Virus record (IMG/VR): IMGVR_UViG_3300032282_004026
Coordinates: 1-63,608 of that record
Length of the DNA stretch: 63,608 bases
Strand: one strand, 5' to 3'
From: a virus
Shown here: piece by piece, positions 6,568 through 59,852 of the stretch
Position numbering within the stretch: the first letter of the stretch is position 1
Layout of the letters: every line of letters starts with the position of its first letter
Notes under the pieces: generated by a model
Told to the model about the DNA's origin: nothing
The model's database searches: none
The model's input: the letters and a program-made list of their open reading frames with translations, nothing else
Position numbers and translations under genes: made by a program

Positions 6568-8934
6568 TCAGGCACCAATTTCTTCAAAGCTTACACTAGA
6601 ACGTGCAGCAATAAAGTTTAGAGTGATGAAGTTGATAGAGCGGTTTGGTTTGATAAAGATATCAGCAACAAACTCGTTACTATCAATAACTTGTCCAGTG
6701 TTATTGGTTTCATCGCACTTAACACGGAAGTCTGTTACACCACGGCGGCCTTGAACATCGCGTAAGAATGGTTCTACTAGATTTCTAAACTGAGCGCGAG
6801 TGAATGTATCGTTGAATTCGAACATTTGATACTTAGCAGCAGTAGCAATAGATTTTTCTAGAACAATGAATAGACGACGTACGTTGATACGATCGAATGC
6901 ACTTGGTTTACGCTGCATTGTCTTATCACCATAAAGGATAGTACCTTGTCCTGGGAATGATACTACTGGGTTAACACCAATACCGTATAATACATCACGG
7001 TCTGATTGACTTGGATTGAATGCTAGTTTAACAACATTCTTAATTTGTCCACGGTTGAAACCACCTGGAGAGAACCAAGGATCAGCAGTGTAATCTGTAC
7101 GAGCACATAGACCAGCGATATCGCCGTTTAGTGGAACATACCAGTAAGCGTCATTGTAACGATCATACTGATACTTAAATCCAGAATCCATTACAGCATA
7201 AGAAGTATCTAAGCTTGTAGCATCACGGTAAGTAGCAATTGCATCGGTTGCAGCTGAACCCATTCCAGTGATTGCACTTCCATCTGTATTTCTTGGAGAT
7301 ACGAATACAACACAATCTCTACGTACTTCTGCAACGTTATCTACGATGAATTTTGCAGTAGAAGCTGAAACGCTACCAGTAGGAATTAGAGAAATATCAT
7401 ACTGATCAGTATTAGCAAACAACGTATAAGCTGTTTGGATGTTTCCTTCTGTAGAAGCAAAATCATCTACACCACCAGAAAGAGTATAATCTAATTGCGT
7501 ATCTGCTACAGCAAGTGTCCAAGCAGTGGCAGTTCTTACTAAACTTGAACTTGATCCCCAGGTTGGCTTAGTTACAGAAGTAATAATACCGCCAGAAGTA
7601 ATAGTTTCTTGTGTTGGAGTTTCCAATATACTAATTACATAGCCTGTTGGAGTATCTACAGTACCTTGACGAGAAACTGAAACTACTGTGTATGTAGCAT
7701 TATTAGCATTAGTTCCGCTAATAGTAATTTGACGACCGTGACTTATAACGCCACGGTCGTTAGTGTAAACTCTCTCTTTATCTGGAGCTGCATCAAAGAA
7801 TGTCTTATAAGCTTCAAGATTTGTAAAACTTCCAGCAGCAACTACTGTAATAGTTTTAGCATTAGCAGAAATAACCATAGCTGATCCAGCAACAGCATTA
7901 ACTGCTGTAGATGCAGGCTCTGATAGTTGTAATGTAGATGGGTGATCCATCCACCATACGTACTTAGATTGTGAATTGATTACGGATTTGTAATAGTTAT
8001 TAGATCCATCAGTCTTCTTAGCATCAGATAACTTAGATAAGAAGCTATACTTTTCTAATACTGCGCCAGCTTGACCGCTGAAGTCTCCTCTTGAATTATC
8101 TAAAACTACAATATGAACTTCATCATTTGTTATTGCATATTGAAGTGCATATGCTGAAGTGCCTGGAGGTGATGAGAATAGGGATCTAATATTTGCAGGT
8201 GCACCTGCAAAATTACCTCTATCTAACATAACTACTCTAACGCCATTTCCTTTTTCGCCTGCAAACTTAGCAGCAAATGGACCAACAACACCAGCACCAT
8301 CTGAGAATGCTGCAAGATAATTGGTGATGTTTTTAATCTTTACGCCAGAAGTAGTTAATCCTATAACACGTGCAGTTGCTGCTGTACCAGATGCTGGTGC
8401 AGCAATTGTAATAGTAGGAGCAGCAGTATACCCACTACCTACATTAGTAAGAGTAATGCCGGTGATTGTACGAGTTGTAACGCTATTCTCGGTAGTATCC
8501 GTATAAGTTACTGTAGCAGTAGCTCTAATACCTCCAGTAATATTAGGTGCACTAATAGTTACTACTGGAACTTCACCGCCAGTTCCTGATGCATAACCTG
8601 AACCAGGACTAACTAATTGAATATTAGCTTGCTCTAGTGATCCAGATTTAACTGCTACCGCATTTCTAAGAAGTGGGGCATCTGCACGAGAAACGTACAA
8701 GCTATTAGTATAAGCTAAAAAGTTAGCTGCTGTGAAAAATGATGAATAGTTTGAACGTGTTGGTTGACCAAAACGGCTAACTAATTCAGTCTCTGAAGAA
8801 ATTCTAACTGGATCTTCAATTGGACCCCAAGCAAATGGTCCAGCGAAGGCTCCAGCCGAAGAAGAAACTGCTGGCACGATTGAAGAAAAATCTTTTTCTA
8901 CAACGGCTACTCCTGGGCTTAGTTGAAAAGGCAT
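6568..8934 (-). CDS. gp18: Contractile tail sheath protein gp18
   Basis: A 788 aa sheath subunit starting MPFQLSPGVAVVEKDFSS, the normal beginning for this family. I chose the ATG at 8934 because a GGAG site lies about 7 bases upstream; an in-frame TTG at 8958 would put the ribosome site inside the gene. T4 gp18 is 659 aa. Conserved parts are the N-terminal AGAFAGPFAWGPIEDPV and the C-terminal INVRRLFIVLEKSI, FEFNDTFTRAQFRNLVEPFL and NFITLNFIAARS. Residues about 100-190 are an inserted beta-rich segment with two PGSGY/VGSGY motifs followed by P-x-x-T-I, also seen in gp8. The sheath contracts to drive the tube through the host envelope. Confidence 0.95.
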   Translation of the reverse strand: MPFQLSPGVAVVEKDFSSIVPAVSSSAGAFAGPFAWGPIEDPVRISSETELVSRFGQPTRSNYSSFFTAANFLAYTNSLYVSRADAPLLRNAVAVKSGSLEQANIQLVSPGSGYASGTGGEVPVVTISAPNITGGIRATATVTYTDTTENSVTTRTITGITLTNVGSGYTAAPTITIAAPASGTAATARVIGLTTSGVKIKNITNYLAAFSDGAGVVGPFAAKFAGEKGNGVRVVMLDRGNFAGAPANIRSLFSSPPGTSAYALQYAITNDEVHIVVLDNSRGDFSGQAGAVLEKYSFLSKLSDAKKTDGSNNYYKSVINSQSKYVWWMDHPSTLQLSEPASTAVNAVAGSAMVISANAKTITVVAAGSFTNLEAYKTFFDAAPDKERVYTNDRGVISHGRQITISGTNANNATYTVVSVSRQGTVDTPTGYVISILETPTQETITSGGIITSVTKPTWGSSSSLVRTATAWTLAVADTQLDYTLSGGVDDFASTEGNIQTAYTLFANTDQYDISLIPTGSVSASTAKFIVDNVAEVRRDCVVFVSPRNTDGSAITGMGSAATDAIATYRDATSLDTSYAVMDSGFKYQYDRYNDAYWYVPLNGDIAGLCARTDYTADPWFSPGGFNRGQIKNVVKLAFNPSQSDRDVLYGIGVNPVVSFPGQGTILYGDKTMQRKPSAFDRINVRRLFIVLEKSIATAAKYQMFEFNDTFTRAQFRNLVEPFLRDVQGRRGVTDFRVKCDETNNTGQVIDSNEFVADIFIKPNRSINFITLNFIAARSSVSFEEIGA

Positions 8935-8962
8935 GTTGAAACTCCTGTTATTATACAAATAA

Positions 8963-39850: not shown

Positions 39851-40090
39851 TTATTTTCCTCTAAGAACTTGGCTAAGCATTTGCTTTATTTCTTCTATAT
39901 CAGATTTTAAAGAAGCAATTTCTTGCGATTGTTGTTCTACTATTTGTTTTTGTTTTTTCTCTGCAAGTCTTCTTCTTTGATACGCTTCAAATTCATTATC
40001 ATCAGTAGATACTATAGCATGAGAGGACATGTCTCTCACTAGAGAATCATGTCCTTCTACCTTTGCGAATTGTGGAATTACGCTGCGCAT
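39851..40090 (-). CDS. Small coiled-coil virion-region protein
   Basis: A 79 aa protein. A conserved N-terminal half (GHDSLVRDMSSHAIVSTDDN) is followed by a helical region with heptads (QQSQEIASLKSDIEEIKQML) likely to form a coiled coil. Proteins with V-E-G-H-x-x-L-V-R-D occur next to the giant structural protein in many aquatic T4-like phages. It overlaps the end of that gene by 13 bases, so translation is probably coupled. Possible trimerising connector between baseplate and fibre; function unproven. Confidence 0.78.
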   Translation of the reverse strand: MRSVIPQFAKVEGHDSLVRDMSSHAIVSTDDNEFEAYQRRRLAEKKQKQIVEQQSQEIASLKSDIEEIKQMLSQVLRGK

Positions 40091-43000
40091 GCAATCACTC
40101 TAAAATCTTTAATACGTGGTACCTGAGATTTATTTATGGATTTCATAACCAGTTTAACGATTACACTATCAAAAGCTTCTAGTCCTTCAACATCACATGT
40201 AATATCAGTAAAATCTACTAAAGATTTAGTATATCCAGATTTAGGTTCTGCTTTACTGAAAGAGGCTTCACTGAAGTTTGCATCTACGCTTAATCCAGTC
40301 TTATAGTATACTTCCACATTTGCATCTGGAGGAATAATTGCTGCAAACATAATTTTCAACATTTCTGAAGGGCGTGAGAAATTAATCTTCTTAGTTACAT
40401 ACTTACTATGCGTAGAACCACCAGATGGAGCATAGTCTGACTTGAAGTGAGATAGCCAGAATATTTGTGCGCCAATTGCATTAGCAGTATCTTGAATAGT
40501 AACACCATCTTTAAATCCTACTAATGTGATATACAATGTAGTAGGATCGTAAGACATACTCTTAATTACCATATCACGAGTAGCATTTGTTCCACCACTG
40601 TAAACGAATCTTAAAACTTGTCCAGGCTGTAGATTATTGGTGCAATGATTATAAAGCGCTGTTTGTGAAATATTATTAACAGTTAGTGTATCTTTAATAC
40701 CATCACCATCAATATCAATTAATCCAAATGTTTTTCCGCTTCCAATTTCAGCAGACCAAGAATTAACTGTACCGGTACCAGTTAAAGATGTACCAGCCGC
40801 AGAAGCGATAAAAGTTGTTCCGACCTTTGTGCTATCAGTTGTAGCATTAGGGCCACCAACTGAAGTAAAGTTAGTACCTATTGTTGCTACAGTATAAGTT
40901 ACACCTGAAATAATAGATGTTGCTGCAATTCCATTACCACCAGAAATTCTGAAATAATCTAGTTCAGAATCATTAACGTCTAATGTTGGACTATCAACTT
41001 TATTACTTACTAAAGTCATCGCCAATCTTCCAAGATCAATAACTGGAGAAACAGAATTTAATGATGCTGAAGGTTTCAAAGTAGCAATTACACTTAATCC
41101 AGATGGGAACTGAGCATTCGTATAATTCATAGAAGAAGGATACACCTTTGTTTCTGGGAATGATACATTTTCCTTTGGAACCATATCATATAAGTCAGGA
41201 ACATCTGAGTGATTAATAACCTTGGCTTGATATGAAATGCTAGTTCCAGGTGGAACAATTTCAGCAATCTCAATCATTGCTGTTTGGAATTCATAGTTTT
41301 CAGTAGCACAAATATATGAACCACCTACTTGTCCACTTGCAGTAGAAGCTGTTAAGAATTCTACAACATATGAATCTAATTCAACGTGTTGAATTGTCCA
41401 ACCAATATCTCTAAATATTTCAGCTGCTGAAATTCCATTGATACTATCAATCACTTGACGTGATGTAAATTTAACTATTTCACCATCAACCATACCGTGA
41501 TCTCTGTGATTAACACGACATTTTTTACTTCCAGTAATAAAGTTGAATGGATTAAAATCTAAAGTCTTAACTGATAATTTTGGAGGAATTAATTCGATTG
41601 AACGAGATGCAGAAGTATCAAACACAGCTCTACGAATAACAAACTTCATATCTTGCGTTTGATCTGCGGTCCACGTAGAAGCATTCTGTGATTTGAATAA
41701 AACACCATTATATGGCTGAGAACTAATTCTTACCTTAGTTGCAACATCAATAGTATCTGTTTGAGAAATCCAAATCTTATATGCATTAGAATCAGATAGA
41801 GCAACTAATGCATACTCTACGCCATTCTGTAAGAATACAGGAGAAGAGAATGTAAATGTAGTAGGAGTTAAACTATCAGTACTAGTAACAATTTGAGATG
41901 CCTTCTTCTCAACACGTGAGAATGGAATAACTGCACTTCCAGGATAGCCATTCACGACTTCACGAATTTCGATTCTCATAGGAATCTTTTCATCTTTACT
42001 TTCAAAGAATAAGTCGACCGAAGTAATAAATGCGCCACCTTCTTGTTGAACTAAGAAAGTTTGAGCTAATGGATCAAACCAACCAGTATCACGAGTTAAT
42101 CTATCGCTTGTGTTTACAATAGTATTCTGATCAGAAACTTGAGTAGAACTAATAGAAGCTGTTCTTGTAGAAAGAATTGTACGTTGTTTAATTTCTACTA
42201 AACCATTTGCTTCATAGAACATTCCTCCGCTCGTAGATTCTTGATCTCCGCGTGTTGCTGGATTTGTAGAAGCACTATCAGAGAAGCGAAGTTCGCGTTT
42301 ACCTGTTCTAAATTTGACTAATGGACTACTTGGAATTCTAAAGATACCAGTAATTAAACCAGTTAGAGAAGATACTAAACTTGTATAATCTGTTCTTCCG
42401 CCTGATATAAATTTAACTCTTGGCTTTAATCCATTACTTGCAGTATATTCACCTTCGAAATATGCATTACTTGCAGTAGAGAATTGGCCATTGCCTTTAA
42501 TATTCAAAACATGAATGTAATAGTTAGTTCCAGAAACTTCTTGCCCAACTACAATTGCAGTGTTACCGGTAGCAGTACCACCAACATATTCTTTAATTAC
42601 TTCGCCGTGGTTAAACGCTACTTCAACTTCTTCAGTAGTATGCTTAGGTCCAATCACTTTAGCAGATACATCTGCTACAGTTGCACCGGTCCATGCTGGA
42701 GAAATCGTGAGAGTATCGTTATCAGTAATAGACTCAACTTTATATCTCGTTGGAGTTCCAACATTTAGAATATCACCAACTTCGACTTGTTGAGTAAATG
42801 CAGTTGCAAGTCCTTCAACACTTGTACTATTCTGTGTTAATGTAATTGTACCAGAAATAGAAGTGCCATCACTATAATATACAGTACGTGTTGCCTCAGA
42901 TACTGCTGAACCAGCATTACGCACAGTATCAAATTTATATTCATATCCATCAACTTTATTAACTGTTAATCGTACTGCTGGAGTAATATAATCATCTACT

Positions 43001-46000
43001 GATGTATTATCAAAATAAGAATACATTCTAGTAGATGGCTTAAATCCATAACCAGTAAACAGTACTGCACGTGGACGAATATATGGAACAATCTGTGTAT
43101 CTACTACACGATCATCAAGAACTTTAGAATCAATTTTATCTACAAGGAAACTTCTTACACCTGCGCGTTGTTGAGTAGTTTCTGTAGCTTGAGTTTCAAT
43201 AGTAACTACACGAGAACCAGCAACTGATGAAGCTTGTGCAGACCAAATATCGCGATTGGTGTTACCAATCAAATCTAATTCTTCAGCAGTAAATGTAGAA
43301 CGACTACGCCAGAAAGTACCACCGTTATTAGCTGAATTCAGAATTTCGTTATCTGCAACTGACCATTGACCAAGATTTTGCTTTCTTTCTGCAAGAGTCT
43401 TAGTAGAAGAGAATACAGTTTGCCACGCATTCCATACTGTTCCCAATACTCCATCTTTTTCAGCTTTGGTTTTAACAGCAATATATTTGCTTTCATCTGT
43501 AAGAATAATATCAGGACGATATTGCGTTGCAAACCAAGTGTCTGACCAAGGGTTAATATCTACAATGCCTTTCCAGCTATAAAGAGCATACGGATTTAAG
43601 AATTCTGATATTGAAGCTTTACGCTGAGCGATGAGTTCTGTCTCAGTATATGGTAGAGTTACTAAGTCTCCAGAAACTTTATATGTTCTATTTGCAGCAG
43701 ATACGTTTTCAAGTAATGCAACTTGTTTTTGCGAGAAGAATGGGCGAAGTTCTTTATTCTTTGAATCTATAGATGCATTCCAATCTTCAGATCCAGTATT
43801 ACCGATACCTTGTCCATCAAATGAATCTACTAAGAATCCATTTTGATAACGTTCATTACCATCTGCATCAACAATTCTCATATTTTTAGTTTCTAACTCT
43901 GTTAAAGTTAGAGCAGTGTAATATTCAAGATCTTGAATACGACGCTCAAGAGATCCAATATCACGCATTGTATATCGCTTATTTTCAACTCTATCAACTA
44001 AAATGCCTCTATTGCGACTTCCTCTAAATGTATATGGTTCTACACTTAGTCTTGCTAATTTCATAGAATTAGCTGGAATATTAGGTTCAGCTGGAGTATC
44101 AGATGGAATACCACGATTAAGAATAAATTGACCAGTGCTAGTCAATGATACATTATCAATTCTAGAATAATGGTGAGTATATTTAAACGATGCGCTCTTA
44201 CCAAATTTTGGAAAATACTTTAATGCAAATCCCGCGCCACTTGCCATTGGTCTAAAGTCAATCGAATCACGAAGAGATATATTAGATACTGAATAAATCT
44301 GATCATATGTCATGCGTGAATCATCAGAATATGTATATGAATCTACTCCAAAGAATCCACCGGCATCAGTTGATGCTGGATTTAAATACTCATACGCAAT
44401 TCTAATAGGACCAGTTGGCGCTGTTGCACCTGGAGCTAGTGAAATACTAGCTAAACCCATATGAGTAGTCTTTTGTCCAGAATTAAAATTGTATCTAGAA
44501 GTAATATTAACACTGTAAATTGGATTTGCAGCAGTTTGCGTAGTAAATCCACGAGCATCCATTAATATAGAAGTAATACGTGTAATGTATGGATGATTTA
44601 AAGTAATATTAGTAGCAGTAGCTGCAGCTTGAGCTGTAAGCTGAATTGGAGATGCATCAGCTACTGTAAAATTAACCTGAGCATTAGTTGCATCAGCTCT
44701 CTTCATTGTCGCAAGCAATGTGTATGATGTATTATTAGTTAATCCAGTAATAGTAATTTTATTATCTGTTGCTGTTAAATTAGCTCCTGGAATTAATATT
44801 ACGGCTACACCAGTTCCATTATTCATTAGAAGATAATTTTGAGAAGTGTATATGCTTTCAAAAGTATAGCCAAATGGCGCATCTTGCTCAATCTTTGAGC
44901 TAGACGCAGTCTTTGTGAAAGGAATAACAACTGAATATGTTACCTCAGAAATATTACTTACTGCATAAGTCTTTGGAATAGGATAAATTAGTGTATCGCC
45001 TGCTGCAGTAGGATTATTCATTACCGCAACACCATTCTCTAAGATGGCGTTGCATTTAAATGCTGTTGCAGAATTAGCATTATTACTTATAGATAGAACA
45101 CTCTTAAAATCTTTAGAAGCGTTCATCTTAACATCGAATAGGAATAGTCTATATGTCCATGCGCCAACACTAGCATTGCTAACATCTAGATTTTCTAAAG
45201 CACGAACTCTAGCAGTTCCTATAACTGTACCAGTTGCAATACTACCTTTTGTTACGCTATGTAAATTAACTGTTGGGATATTCGCTAAATCTGGGAAATA
45301 ATCTAACCCAGTAACATTCACGAATGATCCACTTGAAAGATCGATGTCAGCAGTTATACTAGGAGAAATTGAATCTGTTATAGCTGGTGCAGAAGTTGTT
45401 TTAAAGAAAGTTGCTAAAGCAGAACTTCCAGCTGGAAGATTTCTAGATTTTTGAATTGGTAAGAATTCAGTAGAAAGTTTTTCAATTTCATAACCGCGAA
45501 CATAAGCTTTACCGCTCTCTACACCAATACAAGAATGACCAGCTAAACGAATATGGTCATTTAATGTAAAGGCAGAATACAGGATATCACCTGCAGTGAA
45601 AGTATATACGCCTTGATTAAAATCTGGATATAAAACATATTCCCAAATAATATCATTATCTGTTATAGAATCTACTGTTTGAAGATTAAATCCAGTAGGT
45701 TTTGAAGATTTAAACGCAGCAGGCTTAGAAGATAAATTTGAGCTAGTTCCATTAGTTACTGCAACGAAATACCAGAATCCTGTAGATCCATCTGTAACTT
45801 TAATGATATCGCCTTGAATGAATTTCTCGTTTGGAGCCCAATCACCACGCAAATTATTACGTAGTTCTTTGATTTGCATATTAAATGGTGATAATGAATA
45901 ATCACCAGATTCATCATATGTACGACGAGCAAGAGTCTTCTCTAATTCTGCGTATTGAGTACGATCAACTTTAAATAAAACTTTACCTTTTTGTAAGGCT

Positions 46001-46821
46001 AATAGATCAATGAACCCGTCATCATTTGACGTATTAAAGTCTGAGAATGGACTTGCAGTAGTTCTTAAATCTATTTTACTAAGCACTAAATCCATATAAT
46101 AACGCGCTGCACCTGGAGCAGAATAATTAGGAGAACCTAACGCATTATCTAATAAATTTTCATTATCTTCTGGGTATATCACTTCTTCATTTAACTGCAA
46201 TCCAACTCTATAACTTGGAGTTGTAGTATACTTGTCAAGAATAATAGTTTGATCTGTTACTAAAACAAAATTCTTTTTGATATAATATACACCGCGTTGA
46301 ATCGTAGCAGAGCATCCCTTACCTGTTGGAAGACCAGTGTCAGCCACAGTAACGTCATAACCGGTACTTCCATCAACTGGTGTTAATACTTCATTAGGAG
46401 AAAATGTGGATACGTTAATACCAGTAATAGTTTGAACAGAATTTTGATACTTAACAAAAATAGTATCTAAGTCATCTCCCTCTTTCAAGGTATAAGTTAT
46501 AACCTTAGCAATTAATCCAGCAGAATTCTTAATTTCTTTACCAACGATTCCAGATAAAATATTTTCTGCTTTAACGCCTGCATTAAATCCAAGCTTTACA
46601 TAATTAAGATTTAAGTCATAGGAAATTTGACCAGGGATAACCATTGCACCTTCTTTAAAGATGTGATCACCGTGGCGACGAACTTGTTCTTGAATAATCG
46701 TCTGAAGTTGGGTTAACTCTCTTGCTTGAACCGCATAACCTGGTCTAAATAAAATACGATAAAACTTATCGTCTTCTGAATAATCATCAAAGAATGGTTC
46801 AATTGAAAAATCTAGTGCCAT
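40078..46821 (-). CDS. Giant structural protein with DUF4815-type N-terminus
   Basis: A 2247 aa protein, the largest in the window. The N-terminus has the pattern FFDDYSEDDKFYRILFRPGY, AVQARELTQLQTIIQEQVRR, and GDHIFKEGAMVIPGQISYDL, which starts DUF4815-type baseplate proteins of T4-like aquatic phages. The long body has many Ig- or jelly-roll-like segments, such as TGLTNNTSYTLLATMKRADA and a TSVEGLATAFTQQVEVGDIL module. The C-terminus ends KSINKSQVPRIKDFRVIACA. It lies where T4 has genes 9 and 10, between gp8 and the fibres, so a baseplate-peripheral or fibre-docking role is plausible. No catalytic motif is evident. Confidence 0.8.
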   Translation of the reverse strand: MALDFSIEPFFDDYSEDDKFYRILFRPGYAVQARELTQLQTIIQEQVRRHGDHIFKEGAMVIPGQISYDLNLNYVKLGFNAGVKAENILSGIVGKEIKNSAGLIAKVITYTLKEGDDLDTIFVKYQNSVQTITGINVSTFSPNEVLTPVDGSTGYDVTVADTGLPTGKGCSATIQRGVYYIKKNFVLVTDQTIILDKYTTTPSYRVGLQLNEEVIYPEDNENLLDNALGSPNYSAPGAARYYMDLVLSKIDLRTTASPFSDFNTSNDDGFIDLLALQKGKVLFKVDRTQYAELEKTLARRTYDESGDYSLSPFNMQIKELRNNLRGDWAPNEKFIQGDIIKVTDGSTGFWYFVAVTNGTSSNLSSKPAAFKSSKPTGFNLQTVDSITDNDIIWEYVLYPDFNQGVYTFTAGDILYSAFTLNDHIRLAGHSCIGVESGKAYVRGYEIEKLSTEFLPIQKSRNLPAGSSALATFFKTTSAPAITDSISPSITADIDLSSGSFVNVTGLDYFPDLANIPTVNLHSVTKGSIATGTVIGTARVRALENLDVSNASVGAWTYRLFLFDVKMNASKDFKSVLSISNNANSATAFKCNAILENGVAVMNNPTAAGDTLIYPIPKTYAVSNISEVTYSVVIPFTKTASSSKIEQDAPFGYTFESIYTSQNYLLMNNGTGVAVILIPGANLTATDNKITITGLTNNTSYTLLATMKRADATNAQVNFTVADASPIQLTAQAAATATNITLNHPYITRITSILMDARGFTTQTAANPIYSVNITSRYNFNSGQKTTHMGLASISLAPGATAPTGPIRIAYEYLNPASTDAGGFFGVDSYTYSDDSRMTYDQIYSVSNISLRDSIDFRPMASGAGFALKYFPKFGKSASFKYTHHYSRIDNVSLTSTGQFILNRGIPSDTPAEPNIPANSMKLARLSVEPYTFRGSRNRGILVDRVENKRYTMRDIGSLERRIQDLEYYTALTLTELETKNMRIVDADGNERYQNGFLVDSFDGQGIGNTGSEDWNASIDSKNKELRPFFSQKQVALLENVSAANRTYKVSGDLVTLPYTETELIAQRKASISEFLNPYALYSWKGIVDINPWSDTWFATQYRPDIILTDESKYIAVKTKAEKDGVLGTVWNAWQTVFSSTKTLAERKQNLGQWSVADNEILNSANNGGTFWRSRSTFTAEELDLIGNTNRDIWSAQASSVAGSRVVTIETQATETTQQRAGVRSFLVDKIDSKVLDDRVVDTQIVPYIRPRAVLFTGYGFKPSTRMYSYFDNTSVDDYITPAVRLTVNKVDGYEYKFDTVRNAGSAVSEATRTVYYSDGTSISGTITLTQNSTSVEGLATAFTQQVEVGDILNVGTPTRYKVESITDNDTLTISPAWTGATVADVSAKVIGPKHTTEEVEVAFNHGEVIKEYVGGTATGNTAIVVGQEVSGTNYYIHVLNIKGNGQFSTASNAYFEGEYTASNGLKPRVKFISGGRTDYTSLVSSLTGLITGIFRIPSSPLVKFRTGKRELRFSDSASTNPATRGDQESTSGGMFYEANGLVEIKQRTILSTRTASISSTQVSDQNTIVNTSDRLTRDTGWFDPLAQTFLVQQEGGAFITSVDLFFESKDEKIPMRIEIREVVNGYPGSAVIPFSRVEKKASQIVTSTDSLTPTTFTFSSPVFLQNGVEYALVALSDSNAYKIWISQTDTIDVATKVRISSQPYNGVLFKSQNASTWTADQTQDMKFVIRRAVFDTSASRSIELIPPKLSVKTLDFNPFNFITGSKKCRVNHRDHGMVDGEIVKFTSRQVIDSINGISAAEIFRDIGWTIQHVELDSYVVEFLTASTASGQVGGSYICATENYEFQTAMIEIAEIVPPGTSISYQAKVINHSDVPDLYDMVPKENVSFPETKVYPSSMNYTNAQFPSGLSVIATLKPSASLNSVSPVIDLGRLAMTLVSNKVDSPTLDVNDSELDYFRISGGNGIAATSIISGVTYTVATIGTNFTSVGGPNATTDSTKVGTTFIASAAGTSLTGTGTVNSWSAEIGSGKTFGLIDIDGDGIKDTLTVNNISQTALYNHCTNNLQPGQVLRFVYSGGTNATRDMVIKSMSYDPTTLYITLVGFKDGVTIQDTANAIGAQIFWLSHFKSDYAPSGGSTHSKYVTKKINFSRPSEMLKIMFAAIIPPDANVEVYYKTGLSVDANFSEASFSKAEPKSGYTKSLVDFTDITCDVEGLEAFDSVIVKLVMKSINKSQVPRIKDFRVIACAA
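40131..40138 (-). promoter_or_regulatory. Weak candidate late promoter CATAAATA inside the giant gene
   Basis: CATAAATA on the minus strand, 41 bases upstream of the 79 aa gene start at 40090 but within coding sequence. Given the AT-rich genome, chance occurrence is quite possible. Confidence 0.25.
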
Positions 46822-55011: not shown

Positions 55012-55323
55012 TCATCCAGAAAAGACTCTTGCAGCACCTGAAATTATAATGTTATCTGAATACGTATCGCCAATTCTTCCAATTTTACTGCCACATGCTG
55101 AAACTCTACTAGAATAACTATTTAAAGTACTCATGTCTGGAACGCAGCCACCTTTAGGATGGGATCCTACTAAATCTCCATCAACGACGACTAGACCTCC
55201 CATAGCATAAACTCTTTGTTGACTAGGAGGTCCAGTGTTAGTAGTCATTGGAAATCTGCATTTCCATCCAGTACCATCTGGAGAAAATACAGAATCAGTT
55301 CCACTTCTAGCAACTGCAGGCAT
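55012..55323 (-). CDS. PAAR-repeat spike tip protein (gp5.4-like)
   Basis: A 103 aa PAAR-family protein. PAAR proteins form a metal-bound cone that sharpens the tip of the central spike. The sequence MPAVARSGTDSVFSPDGTGW, GGLVVVDGDLVGSHPKGGCV, and CGSKIGRIGDTYSDNIIISG shows the repeated short strands and the His and Cys residues typical of the metal site. The gene lies next to gp5, whose beta-helix it would cap. Start ATG overlaps the stop of the preceding gene (TAATG), and it precedes gp25 by 23 bases. Confidence 0.88.
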   Translation of the reverse strand: MPAVARSGTDSVFSPDGTGWKCRFPMTTNTGPPSQQRVYAMGGLVVVDGDLVGSHPKGGCVPDMSTLNSYSSRVSACGSKIGRIGDTYSDNIIISGAARVFSG

Positions 55324-55892
55324 TATATAGTTCCTTTAGCTAATAGAGCTTTAAACGCAGCTACTGCTGGTGGATATGTCCAATATATGTCTTGCAATAT
55401 TGTTACTGTTTCTTCTGTTTCACCCGGAGTAGTAGCAGAAGTATACTTTATCTTAATAGTATATGGCACATCGTATATGTATTTCACTGAAGGTGGTGAC
55501 CATTTTACAATAGAAAGATATGGTTCTTGAGTATTAGCTGGAAGAATCTTTAAAGACTTATCTTTCATAATGAATTGATAATACGCATCAACAAACACTC
55601 CCGTTGCACTACCAGAAATTCTAATAGTATCTCCAACTTTAGTAAAAGTAACACCTGTTACATCGGATTGCATTGATATTATTTTTGTTATAGTTACTGG
55701 CTCATATGTTACGCTTCCTTCGCCTGCAGGTATAGGCACAGCAAAACCAATGTCAACTGAAAATAAATCGCCGCCTTCATATACCCCATCTATAACATTT
55801 GCCGGTGGGCCTGCACCTTCTGGATCTGAATATCTACTTGCAATAAGTGGAAATCCACTCATATTGCTTTTTGTTATTTTAAGCTGCGCCAA
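55323..55892 (-). CDS. Virion-region protein between PAAR and gp5
   Basis: A 189 aa protein, mostly beta. It starts MAQLKITKSNMSGFPLIASR from TTG at 55892, overlapping the gp5 stop by 14 bases. An internal ATG at 55862 (MSGFPL) is the alternative start. The TTG has an AAGGA sequence about 10 bases upstream, which I judge slightly better. Features are ASRYSDPEGAGPPANVIDGV, SGSATGVFVDAYYQFIMKDK and QDIYWTYPPAVAAFKALLAK. It is placed where spike-associated proteins occur in other T4-like aquatic phages. Function unknown; a hub accessory is likely. Confidence 0.65.
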   Translation of the reverse strand: MAQLKITKSNMSGFPLIASRYSDPEGAGPPANVIDGVYEGGDLFSVDIGFAVPIPAGEGSVTYEPVTITKIISMQSDVTGVTFTKVGDTIRISGSATGVFVDAYYQFIMKDKSLKILPANTQEPYLSIVKWSPPSVKYIYDVPYTIKIKYTSATTPGETEETVTILQDIYWTYPPAVAAFKALLAKGTI

Positions 55893-58587
55893 GATTAGTC
55901 AATCCTTGAGAATGAGTCTTATCATTTAAGAATGTTAAAACTTGTTTTCTATTAGTACCAACGCTATTATGTCCAAGGTGAATCCAATTAATTCTCTTAG
56001 GATCTTTGCTACCATTAACGCCAGGATCTCTATATTCTAGTAATAACTGATCAATTGGTAATGTAGCAGCAAATTTTACAGCCCAGTCATAGTTAACTTT
56101 GTATCCATAATTACCACCAATGGATACGTCAGCAGCTGTGCCAATTAGGTGCGGAGAAAGAAGCACTGAGCCCGCGACAGGATCATTTCTAAAGCAAGAA
56201 GTTAAATACCAAGCTTTATCAACTGGTCCAACCATTTCATTAACTGGTCCAAGTATATTAACGCATAAACCTTTTAAATTACATACAATTTCTTGTACTG
56301 AATATACTTTTCCATTCTTCCAGTTAACAGTGCTAATGGTTCTACCCTTTGTTAGTTTACCCATAGTCCATTTATAACCAGTCGAATCTGTGTAAAGAAC
56401 ATAAGATTCTGGGAAAGAAGTCATACCAGAAATTATGTCGCAATCTACAGAACTTGCTATTTTCTTATTTTCTGGAGCAGGAGTACTTTCCACGGCTACG
56501 GCTTTATCGCTAGTAGTTGGAGTTGCTCTTTCTTCATGATATTTTTTAGCTTTCGGATCTTCATTTTCTTCTGGAGTTTCATATGAAAGTTCTTCTTCAA
56601 GATTACGTGGAGGAGGTTTCAATTGCTCAAATGTACGAGAATTCTTAGTGCCTTGAGAAACTGCACCTGGTAAACCAGCAGCAGAAGCACTATCTGCTCC
56701 TTCAGCAAGATGCACAGTAGAACCTTCAATCTTAGCTTCACCTCCAGCATTAGCATGGAATCCACCAGAAGATGTAAGTTTATTAGCGCCATCTGCTGTG
56801 ACATTAAAGTCTGAATTAGAATCCATTTTTATATTGGCGGCGCTTAATTTAAATTCACCACCAATACGCATTGACAAATCATTTGCAACGCTAATATCTG
56901 CATCACCTGCCATATTAATCTTAGTATCACCAGTAACGTCAATGAAAGCATCTGCTTCTACTAATATTCGAGCTGTTCCATTAACAGTCACATTGCAATC
57001 ACCACCAATAAATACGTATCCATTTCTTTCCATTATGTAATAGCCATCACCAACTATACGATTAACCTGTGAACCATTAGCGTCAATTTCAGTATATGTG
57101 CCTTTACGATGATACATATGAATACGTTCATTTTCTGGCGTATCGTCGAATTCTAGTAAATGACCAGATTCAGTTTCCATAACTTTATTGTATGGATACC
57201 TAGCATTAAAAGGAATATCTGGTTGAGACCACTCAAATCCATTAGCAGTCTCTACACCTTCAAGACGTTTTTGATCTTTGTATTCAACAACTGTTCCAGT
57301 GATTTTTCCACGTGCTAATCTATTAGTATCTGGCTCTCCAATATAATTGCGAAGAGGATACTTCATATTAGGATCGTTAAATCCATTCACTAAATTCTTC
57401 TGACGATCTTTAGGTAATCCGTTTTCGGCAATGGGCACTGATTGAACGTCTTCTCCTTTATTAGTACTCTTATCTGTTTGTTCTGGAGTAGGAGAATCAT
57501 CGCCAAGAAAATATTTGTAATACCCACGCTTTTTATTATATCCACCACCATCATTACCAACAGCTCTTAGTGCTTTTTCAAAATAACCGGGATCTGTAGG
57601 ATCTGCTGAAACTCTACGCTTCATGTATTGTACTGTAACTGCAGCAGAAACAGCATAATCTGTATTAAGTAAATCAGGTTGAGATAAAATATCTACGCCA
57701 GTTAGTTTTGCATATATGGCATAATTGCTTCTACCAGTTATCTGTATGAAGCCTCTTCCATAAAATTTGCCACCATCACCGGGTTGATTATTTCCAAGAG
57801 ATCTTCCGTTATTTTCTGGAGCATATACCAAATCGAAGAATGATTCTCGGGTGCCTTTCCACTTAGCATATTTTTCAGCTAGGTCTGGCTTATTTCCAAA
57901 TGTATAACCAAACACTTTCATTAGTGAAGCTGCTGAAGAATAATAATATCCTTCTGCCTGTGGAACACATCCACTTTCTCCCATAGCAATTGCTAATATA
58001 GCAGCTCTTCCGTATTTGCCCTTTATTCCCTGTCTATCCATTTCAGCATTTAATGCATCAATTCCGGGCTTTGCTCGTGGCGAAGGAGGTGGAACTGCTT
58101 TAACTTGAGTTGCAGTAGAATCTGTAGAAGAAGCAGGAGAAGGATTTGGTTGTGTACCGGTAGTAACTGGATTGCCACTTCCATCAGTGACAACAGAACC
58201 AGATCCATCAGTAACTACATTTCCTGCAGGAGTAGCTTCTACTTTTGGAGGTTTAATGTCAATCGAAATGCTATCATCTTCATCATCATCGATTGCCTTA
58301 CTTTCGTCTTGAGGTATTCCACCAATACTACCCAATATAATTGGTTGCTGATGTTCAGCATCTCTAAACATAATAACAACCCAAGTACCTTCTACAACTC
58401 CAACTGGTGCAACGCCAATACCATTCATTGCAGCGGAAGTTACGGGTTGCATTGGATATGCCCAAGGCAAATCTTCTGTTGGTAGTATAGTCTTATCGTG
58501 TGTATGTAAACCAACGACTCTAACTTGGCATCTACCAAGTTTCAAAGGATCTTTTCTATTTTCTATGCAACCAGTATATAAATTCAT
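55879..58587 (-). CDS. gp5: Central spike / hub lysozyme gp5 with GH19 and M15 domains
   Basis: A 902 aa protein (T4 gp5: 575 aa). Residues 1-95 are the OB-fold of gp5 (RKDPLKLGRCQVRVVGLHTH, GTWVVIMFRDAEHQQPIILG). Residues about 178-365 are a GH19-type muramidase/chitinase-like domain, with Glu204 in GESG and the signature FYGRGFIQITGRSNY. Residues about 430-640 are the triple-stranded beta-helix (repeats such as DAFIDVTGDTKINMAGDADI). Residues about 720-900 are a Peptidase_M15-like domain with SPHLIGTAADV (His813, Asp820) and NWIHLGH (His870). The spike pierces the outer membrane and opens peptidoglycan. T4 uses a different lysozyme fold. The gene follows gp27 by 2 bases. Confidence 0.92.
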   Translation of the reverse strand: MNLYTGCIENRKDPLKLGRCQVRVVGLHTHDKTILPTEDLPWAYPMQPVTSAAMNGIGVAPVGVVEGTWVVIMFRDAEHQQPIILGSIGGIPQDESKAIDDDEDDSISIDIKPPKVEATPAGNVVTDGSGSVVTDGSGNPVTTGTQPNPSPASSTDSTATQVKAVPPPSPRAKPGIDALNAEMDRQGIKGKYGRAAILAIAMGESGCVPQAEGYYYSSAASLMKVFGYTFGNKPDLAEKYAKWKGTRESFFDLVYAPENNGRSLGNNQPGDGGKFYGRGFIQITGRSNYAIYAKLTGVDILSQPDLLNTDYAVSAAVTVQYMKRRVSADPTDPGYFEKALRAVGNDGGGYNKKRGYYKYFLGDDSPTPEQTDKSTNKGEDVQSVPIAENGLPKDRQKNLVNGFNDPNMKYPLRNYIGEPDTNRLARGKITGTVVEYKDQKRLEGVETANGFEWSQPDIPFNARYPYNKVMETESGHLLEFDDTPENERIHMYHRKGTYTEIDANGSQVNRIVGDGYYIMERNGYVFIGGDCNVTVNGTARILVEADAFIDVTGDTKINMAGDADISVANDLSMRIGGEFKLSAANIKMDSNSDFNVTADGANKLTSSGGFHANAGGEAKIEGSTVHLAEGADSASAAGLPGAVSQGTKNSRTFEQLKPPPRNLEEELSYETPEENEDPKAKKYHEERATPTTSDKAVAVESTPAPENKKIASSVDCDIISGMTSFPESYVLYTDSTGYKWTMGKLTKGRTISTVNWKNGKVYSVQEIVCNLKGLCVNILGPVNEMVGPVDKAWYLTSCFRNDPVAGSVLLSPHLIGTAADVSIGGNYGYKVNYDWAVKFAATLPIDQLLLEYRDPGVNGSKDPKRINWIHLGHNSVGTNRKQVLTFLNDKTHSQGLTNLGAA

Positions 58588-58589
58588 TG

Positions 58590-59852
58590 TTATGCGCTCA
58601 GGTTAACTAATACAGAATTCTTAACGATTTCCATATTACATGTATGATTTTCACGTGTAATTGTATGGCTTATAGCAGATATTAAATATTTGCCAGAAAG
58701 AATCTTGTCTCTTGGATCTTGATCATCTTTGGTAATCTGTGTAGCTTTTGGTAAATACAAATCAATTACTCTTCCTACAGTATAGTCTGTTCTTCCATAC
58801 ACTTGAATATTAACCTTATATTTAGAAAGATTTTGGAAGAAAGAAATTCTCTTCTGCTGAAACTTAAATGATGTTGCATCACCGTAATTAGTAAAATTAC
58901 CGTAATACTTTGGCATAAACATTTGAGCACTTTGAGCATTTGCTAAAGTGTACTTAGAATATGCTGGATTAGGATTTAAAAGCGTATCAGGTTTAGGATC
59001 CTTCTTTACACTATAATCTTTTACTGTATATTTTTTAGTAGTAATATCATATGTAATAAGTCTAGATTTCATTCTACCAGATTGAATATCATTCATATAA
59101 TCTGTCAATACTGGAATGCTAATATCAAGAATTCTCTTAAAATCTTCTTGCGGATCTCTAGTATTACCAGTTCCAGACGCATCAGGTGTTCGTGTATAAT
59201 TGTCTTTAATAAATTTATGAGAAGGTTCAGATTTTAATATTTCATTAATTGAACGGAAGTTAAGCCCATCTCTGTTTTCATAAAACAAATATGAAGGAGA
59301 ATAAGCAACACTTAAAGCAGCATCGCACAAATAATTTAAGCACTTCACTGGAGACCAAAAGTTAGCAGTGAACTTAGTAGAATTAGATGTCTGTTCTACA
59401 TTAAGCTTTTTAGTAGTCTTCAATCCTTTTTCGCCAAGTATAGTTGAAGCTAATTCATTAATCTTACCGTCAAAAGTCTTACTAATTTTCATATTAGCAT
59501 CGACTAAAAAATCTGAAGATATACATTTAAGCGCATAAACTACTTCTCGCTCTTTAGTATATTCACGATCAGTAATCTTATAAACGTAAAAACGTCCTTT
59601 AATAGGAACATCTAATGATGGAGTTACTACATCAATGTCGACAAACTCTTCTCCGACAAATGGAAATATATTAATATAATCTACAGATTCTCTCAATACA
59701 ATAGTCATTGTAGTGAATGGCGAAAACATATCTTCATAAATTTCAATCATTGAAACTTGATTAGTTACGTTTGCAGCTTGGCCGTTCAAAGAATTAATTT
59801 GAACTTCTTTTATCTGTATATCACCAGCAAATTTTAAACCTGAAGTTGCCAT
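58590..59852 (-). CDS. gp27: Baseplate hub protein gp27
   Basis: A 420 aa hub protein (T4 gp27: 391 aa) with the VgrG/gp27 tube-like fold. Features: the N-terminal QIKEVQINSLNGQAANVTNQ, IEIYEDMFSPFTTMTIVLRE and EEFVDIDVVTPSLDVPIKGR, then YVYKITDREYTKEREVVYAL. The C-terminus LSGKYLISAISHTITRENHT CNMEIVKNSV is typical of hub subunits. It forms the trimeric collar that holds gp5, so direct adjacency to gp5 (2-base spacing) matches partnership. In T4 the gene is not next to gp5; in aquatic T4-like phages it may be. ATG at 59852. Confidence 0.85.
   Translation of the reverse strand: MATSGLKFAGDIQIKEVQINSLNGQAANVTNQVSMIEIYEDMFSPFTTMTIVLRESVDYINIFPFVGEEFVDIDVVTPSLDVPIKGRFYVYKITDREYTKEREVVYALKCISSDFLVDANMKISKTFDGKINELASTILGEKGLKTTKKLNVEQTSNSTKFTANFWSPVKCLNYLCDAALSVAYSPSYLFYENRDGLNFRSINEILKSEPSHKFIKDNYTRTPDASGTGNTRDPQEDFKRILDISIPVLTDYMNDIQSGRMKSRLITYDITTKKYTVKDYSVKKDPKPDTLLNPNPAYSKYTLANAQSAQMFMPKYYGNFTNYGDATSFKFQQKRISFFQNLSKYKVNIQVYGRTDYTVGRVIDLYLPKATQITKDDQDPRDKILSGKYLISAISHTITRENHTCNMEIVKNSVLVNLSA

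Follow-up and report, generated by a model that had tools for sequence, protein, structure and literature searches.

Whether a single T4-type spike can carry two wall-cutting enzymes of different families, and whether both would then act as the virus enters its host, is the question raised by one gene of the window, that is, the whole stretch of 63,608 nucleotides analyzed here, a 63.6-kb uncultured viral contig. Among cell-puncturing devices, T4 gp5 is the textbook example, and it bears one glycosidase. An earlier note made from the sequence had described a spike with a GH19 and an M15 domain, one on each side of the beta-helix, and had left open how common this pairing is.

The spike gene lies on the minus strand (55879..58587), with an ATG at 58587, a stop codon ending at 55879, and a product of 902 amino acids, and the plus strand of the same interval has stops throughout; the coordinates and residue numbering given earlier are thus correct. 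The N-terminal residues 1 to 97 (58297..58587, minus strand) match the Pfam Gp5_OB model (1.2e-26), as expected from the OB-fold that had been proposed, the whole protein matches phrog_430 (4e-99), and T4 gp5 itself (1k28) is matched at 7e-39. The gp5 core and triple beta-helix occupy residues 402 to 630 (56698..57384, minus strand), and structural matches to this region include VgrG helices. A Pfam match to Gp5_trimer_C was weak and under its cut-off, and an NCBIfam search with the window spike protein returned no match. On these sequence matches, we identify the protein as a T4 gp5-type central spike, which presumably forms a trimer as gp5 does. An evolved VgrG of a T6SS was considered and ruled out, as the window carries phage capsid, portal, terminase, and sheath genes farther away from the spike; the spike resembles evolved VgrG proteins in its working without being a T6SS component.

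The gene belongs to a T4-like tail module in the order tube cap, gp53, hub-like tail protein, spike, 189-aa open reading frame (ORF), PAAR, gp25, and gp6. The hub-like tail protein (58590..59852, minus strand, 420 aa) matches phrog_350 (6.5e-81) and is equated with gp27 by position. The 189-aa ORF (55323..55892, minus strand) starts inside the 3' end of the spike gene with an overlap of 14 bp and had no match in Pfam, PHROG, or NCBIfam. Its homologues occupy the same place at 37 loci and, because this position between spike and PAAR is kept, its product may belong to the spike tip. The PAAR-type protein (55012..55323, minus strand, 103 aa; phrog_281, 2.3e-8) is the counterpart of the T4 tip protein gp5.4, and PAAR homologues stand beside the spike in 40 loci. 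No lysis gene was recognized among the window ORFs scanned. Judged by gp6, the nearest deposited phages infect Pelagibacter, Methylophilales, and Synechococcus, all at less than 60% identity. Elsewhere in the window, the longest ORF (40078-46821, 2,247 aa) lies between fibre-like and baseplate genes, and the tail sheath protein (6568-8958, 796 aa) matches sheath proteins at each end, with residues 111 to 226 giving a match of the head-closure type (phrog_460).

The first of the two enzymes is a GH19 domain at residues 166 to 366 (57490..58092, minus strand). The block FYGRGFIQITGRSNY is present where it had been reported, with Glu204 correctly numbered, and the window spike exceeds the cut-off of the Pfam family model Glyco_hydro_19 (PF00182; 3.1e-7, 30.9 bits versus 25.5), which was the check that the earlier note had proposed for this domain. 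A PDB sequence search matched residues 170 to 321 to the phage GH19 endolysin 8p8e (1.3e-12), and the corresponding region of the predicted structure (about residues 165 to 366) aligned to phage GH19 endolysins and to the TseP lysozyme domain with Z scores of 16 to 19 (7r6s, 19.2; 9eoi, 18.4; 8p8e and 4ok7, 17.9). T4 gp5 aligns on both flanks of this domain, its residues 8 to 162 with window residues 1 to 151 and, by phmmer, its residues 376 to 461 with window residues 453 to 538; therefore, GH19 takes the place that the lysozyme domain has in T4 gp5. Glu204 (codon 57976-57978) and Glu212 (57952-57954, both on the minus strand), which we take from knowledge of the GH19 family to be the catalytic residues, are kept in all 100 distinct relatives. 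By analogy with its relatives, the domain would cut the glycan strands of peptidoglycan.

The C-terminal domain (residues 710 to 902; 55882..56460, minus strand) was harder to place. With the window C terminus as the sole query, neither Pfam nor a PDB sequence search gave a match, and Foldseek with the C-terminal model returned nothing significant. The assignment was made because relatives and a second structural alignment gave matches where these single-sequence searches gave none. Peptidase_M15_3 was matched by 17 of 24 aligned relatives (best, 3.9e-6; Pfam), so that the suggested comparison with M15 family models failed for the window sequence and succeeded for most of the relatives aligned. 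PHROGs matched residues 760 to 891 to phrog_894, a family of endolysins (8.8e-6), and tblastn retrieved phage genes annotated as peptidase M15 or endolysin. The domain model is confident (pLDDT, 90.8), and its closest fold in the second structural alignment is the zinc DD-peptidase 1lbu (Z score of 10.9 over 130 residues), followed by hedgehog domains (Z score of 6.9), LysECD7, ChiX, and VanXY, with other M15 enzymes below 1lbu. The motifs read earlier as M15-type, SPHLIGTAADV and NWIHLGH, are indeed present (residues 811 to 821 and 867 to 873), and His813 (56149-56151), Asp820 (56128-56130), and His870 (55978-55980) correspond to the zinc-ligand motifs SxHxxGxAxD and WxH. Together with Glu851 (56035-56037; all four codons on the minus strand), these residues are kept wherever the alignment covers them: His813, Asp820, and Glu851 in 75/75 relatives and His870 in the 74/74 that reach that position. 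The replacement of catalytic residues that the earlier note had named as a danger to its reading was thus found in neither domain. We conclude from the relatives, PHROG and tblastn matches, and predicted fold that the C terminus is an M15-type zinc-peptidase domain, and the best inference is that it cuts the peptide part of peptidoglycan, with D-Ala-D-Ala, a cross-link, and L-Ala-D-Glu as candidate bonds.

The pairing recurs widely among relatives of the window. Loci were collected in two scans of viral contigs and ranked by similarity to the window, and in this sample, which is accordingly biased towards the window, 39 of 69 dereplicated complete spikes have the order OB-GH19-helix-M15, one of them on a contig that differs little from the window. 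Therefore, the recurrence of this order is far beyond chance. A further 16 spikes have OB-GH19-helix-CHAP and four have GH19-helix-M15 with OB in a separate upstream gene; the remainder comprise OB-helix (five spikes), OB-helix-M15 (two), OB-GH19-helix (two), and helix-M15 (one). Deposited phages give a different picture: 2,766 records match the spike and only 26 match the C-terminal domain, a search in which more distant cases may be missed. Spikes among these 26 records are those of pf16, Cr30, BUCT-ZZ01, and Melnitz isolates, with GH19 found only in BUCT-ZZ01. A scan with the C terminus as the sole query found nothing beyond close relatives already known, and a second M15 query found more M15 domains, located on PAAR proteins. 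Judged from these sequences, the GH19-M15 pairing is conserved in the uncultured clade of the window and rare among deposited phages, which answers the question of frequency left open earlier. Other spikes in the collection are built differently. That of L070 (3947-8371, 1,475 aa) has M15 at its end and a weak GDSL/SGNH-type match in the middle slot (4e-5, under the cut-off), possibly another enzyme pairing, and the short spikes of L071 to L085 (328 to 379 aa) consist of OB and helix alone, with no recognizable wall-cutting domain.

The spikes with CHAP bear on what the C-terminal position is kept for. In a tree built quickly from 159 columns of the core and helix that the spikes have in common, in which long distant rows are unsure, they form one group (SH-aLRT, 87) nested inside the M15 spikes, which suggests, with modest support, that M15 was replaced by CHAP once. 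CHAP is, like M15, a wall-cutting family, and its Cys and His are intact in 21/21 sequences. Ratios of dN/dS between pairs of relatives were 0.03 to 0.14 for GH19 and 0.01 to 0.13 for M15; they were higher between the window and L017 (0.28 and 0.22, respectively), and comparisons with more distant relatives were saturated and set aside. These ratios indicate that both enzyme domains are under purifying selection. The earlier description of a beta-helix flanked by hydrolase domains from two families is supported, and the catalytic residues of both domains are conserved.

It could still be that the C-terminal domain keeps the M15 fold without cutting peptidoglycan, binding the wall or serving as a structural part at the tip. 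In hedgehog signalling domains an M15-like fold is kept for another role, and their presence among the fold neighbours, together with the drift of the window's own sequence from the family models, lends this some weight. The window sequence also has private changes beside its motifs (SPH for SQH, and WIHLGH for WIHLSY or WIHISY), a point against the two-enzyme reading, as are its lack of a Pfam match in M15 and its higher dN/dS against L017 in both domains. However, no relative covered has lost a zinc ligand or the conserved Glu, the top fold match is a zinc DD-peptidase with a higher Z score than the hedgehogs, and the slot has been refilled by CHAP, its Cys and His intact, which fits selection for catalysis. 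We therefore regard a noncatalytic M15 domain as improbable.

We consider it likely that the protein is an entry spike with two enzymes, GH19 in the lysozyme slot and M15 on a tether, which would cut glycan and peptide upon infection; its activity, trimeric state, timing, the cooperation of its enzymes, and the position of M15 beside the tip are the inferred parts of this reading. On tail contraction, the PAAR-capped needle would pierce the outer membrane. The GH19 domains would then cut glycan strands in the periplasm, and the M15 domains might reach sideways on linkers of about 80 residues to cut stem peptides or cross-links; together they would make an opening for the tail tube. The linker (residues 631 to 709; 56461..56697, minus strand) is rich in P, E, T, and K and has pLDDT values mostly below 50 in residues 628 to 703. 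The full-length spike model is reliable only for GH19, for M15, and for a portion of the helix, with the OB domain unfolded, and for this reason it does not show how the domains are arranged in space. The T4 OB domain is attached to the hub and the T4 lysozyme packs alongside the beta-helix (PMC3004832), and the spike tip is capped and sharpened by gp5.4 (PMC7600766). The idea that the spike is enzymatic at both ends thus finds no support in three dimensions: the middle lysozyme of T4 lies beside the helix, its tip is capped, and in the window M15 follows a low-confidence linker and a PAAR gene lies two genes downstream. With the PAAR gene nearby, the tip itself is likely capped, and M15 therefore probably hangs beside it. 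The more accurate description is of a needle with two enzymes along its length.

Either GH19 or M15 might instead work at lysis, for example if proteolysis freed the C-terminal part, so that the spike gene doubled as an endolysin gene. The nearest relatives of both domains are phage endolysins, and split spike genes occur in some of the related viruses. In 12 loci (L040, L042, L043, L045, L057 to L061, L063, L064, and L066), the split falls exactly between OB and GH19 and is identical, consisting of a TAA in frame and then GGANNNAYRATG (mostly TAAGGATTTATAATG); the spikes of Melnitz (L003) and L069 are likewise split, by TAATG stop-start overlaps. Judging from these junctions, OB and GH19-helix-M15 are probably encoded by a coupled gene pair. 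Stop-codon readthrough at the in-frame TAA is less likely, since TAAGGA has an ATG six bases on and resembles an ordinary gene start. The split, however, detaches OB from an intact GH19-helix-M15 chain and does not detach the enzymes from the helix, the spike gene lies within the baseplate operon, and T4 gp5 is required at infection and dispensable for cell lysis (PMC3004832). A lysis role accordingly seems to us even less probable than a noncatalytic M15 domain. Finally, an assembly artefact or broken gene, conceivable in an uncultured viral contig, is rejected given the recurrence of the architecture in the 39 dereplicated spikes, including that of the isolate BUCT-ZZ01, and the purifying selection in both domains.

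Compared with known systems, the two-enzyme entry spike combines familiar parts. It shares with T4 gp5 the OB domain, a middle glycosidase, the triple beta-helix, and an adjacent tip-cap gene, but the middle domain of T4 gp5 belongs with T4 lysozyme rather than with GH19, and no enzyme follows its helix. The spike of Synechococcus phage BUCT-ZZ01 (L002) has the same OB-GH19-helix-M15 order; it is distant (36% identity) and annotated merely as a baseplate hub subunit, and we found no paper on it. Caulobacter phage Cr30 gp5 (L004) has OB, a middle lysozyme, helix, and M15 as in the window, but its middle domain is Phage_lysozyme2 (PF18013, 5.5e-29) and not GH19, and in Serratia phage 3M a CHAP domain occupies the middle slot of the spike. 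RaK2 gp078 (PMC3622015) and CBB_240, the latter detected in virions (PMC5259590), are likewise large spike proteins and end in a lysozyme, but this is the one enzyme reported for them, and no peptidase. In Vibrio phage 1.244.A (L156, 2464-3453) and in PA5oct (L155, 3467-4489), whose record marks the protein as ESI-MS/MS, M15 is likewise delivered at the spike tip but is fused to the PAAR cap and not to the spike. Among T6SS proteins, VgrG3cp carries a wall-cutting domain on the spike C terminus, as in the window (PMC9927483), and the effector TseP pairs an amidase with a GH19-like lysozyme (PMC11893102); both differ in being bacterial weapons with immunity proteins, VgrG3cp having one enzyme and TseP being a cargo. 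HydH5-type hydrolases of Gram-positive phages, which have two catalytic domains in one virion entry protein (PMC3150257), differ in not being gp5-type spikes. For Gram-negative hosts, two-enzyme endolysins occur in cyanobacterial phages and have been tied to thicker walls (PMC8310338), which is only a lead for the window.

Each element is thus already known, namely, gp5 spikes, GH19 and M15 endolysins, C-terminal spike enzymes, two-domain virion hydrolases, and dual T6SS effectors. In the literature searched, mostly outside subscription journals and preprints, we found no description of GH19 with M15 in one T4-type spike, of its clade-wide conservation, or of the M15-CHAP exchange. Because it recurs in dozens of related uncultured viruses, the pairing is genuine, and the protein represents a conserved form of the T4 spike already known. 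We speculate, tentatively and at somewhat less than even odds, that the spike of a large uncultured T4-like clade is an obligate cutter of two bonds, with a fixed GH19 and an exchangeable C-terminal cartridge (M15, once replaced by CHAP) whose choice tracks the chemistry or thickness of the host wall. A conserved second hydrolase that is flexibly tethered and can be exchanged between families makes it testable whether both glycan and peptide cutting are required for entry into some hosts. Such proteins connect the phage spike to evolved VgrG proteins and to dual wall-cutting effectors of the T6SS, and they are a source of paired lytic domains.
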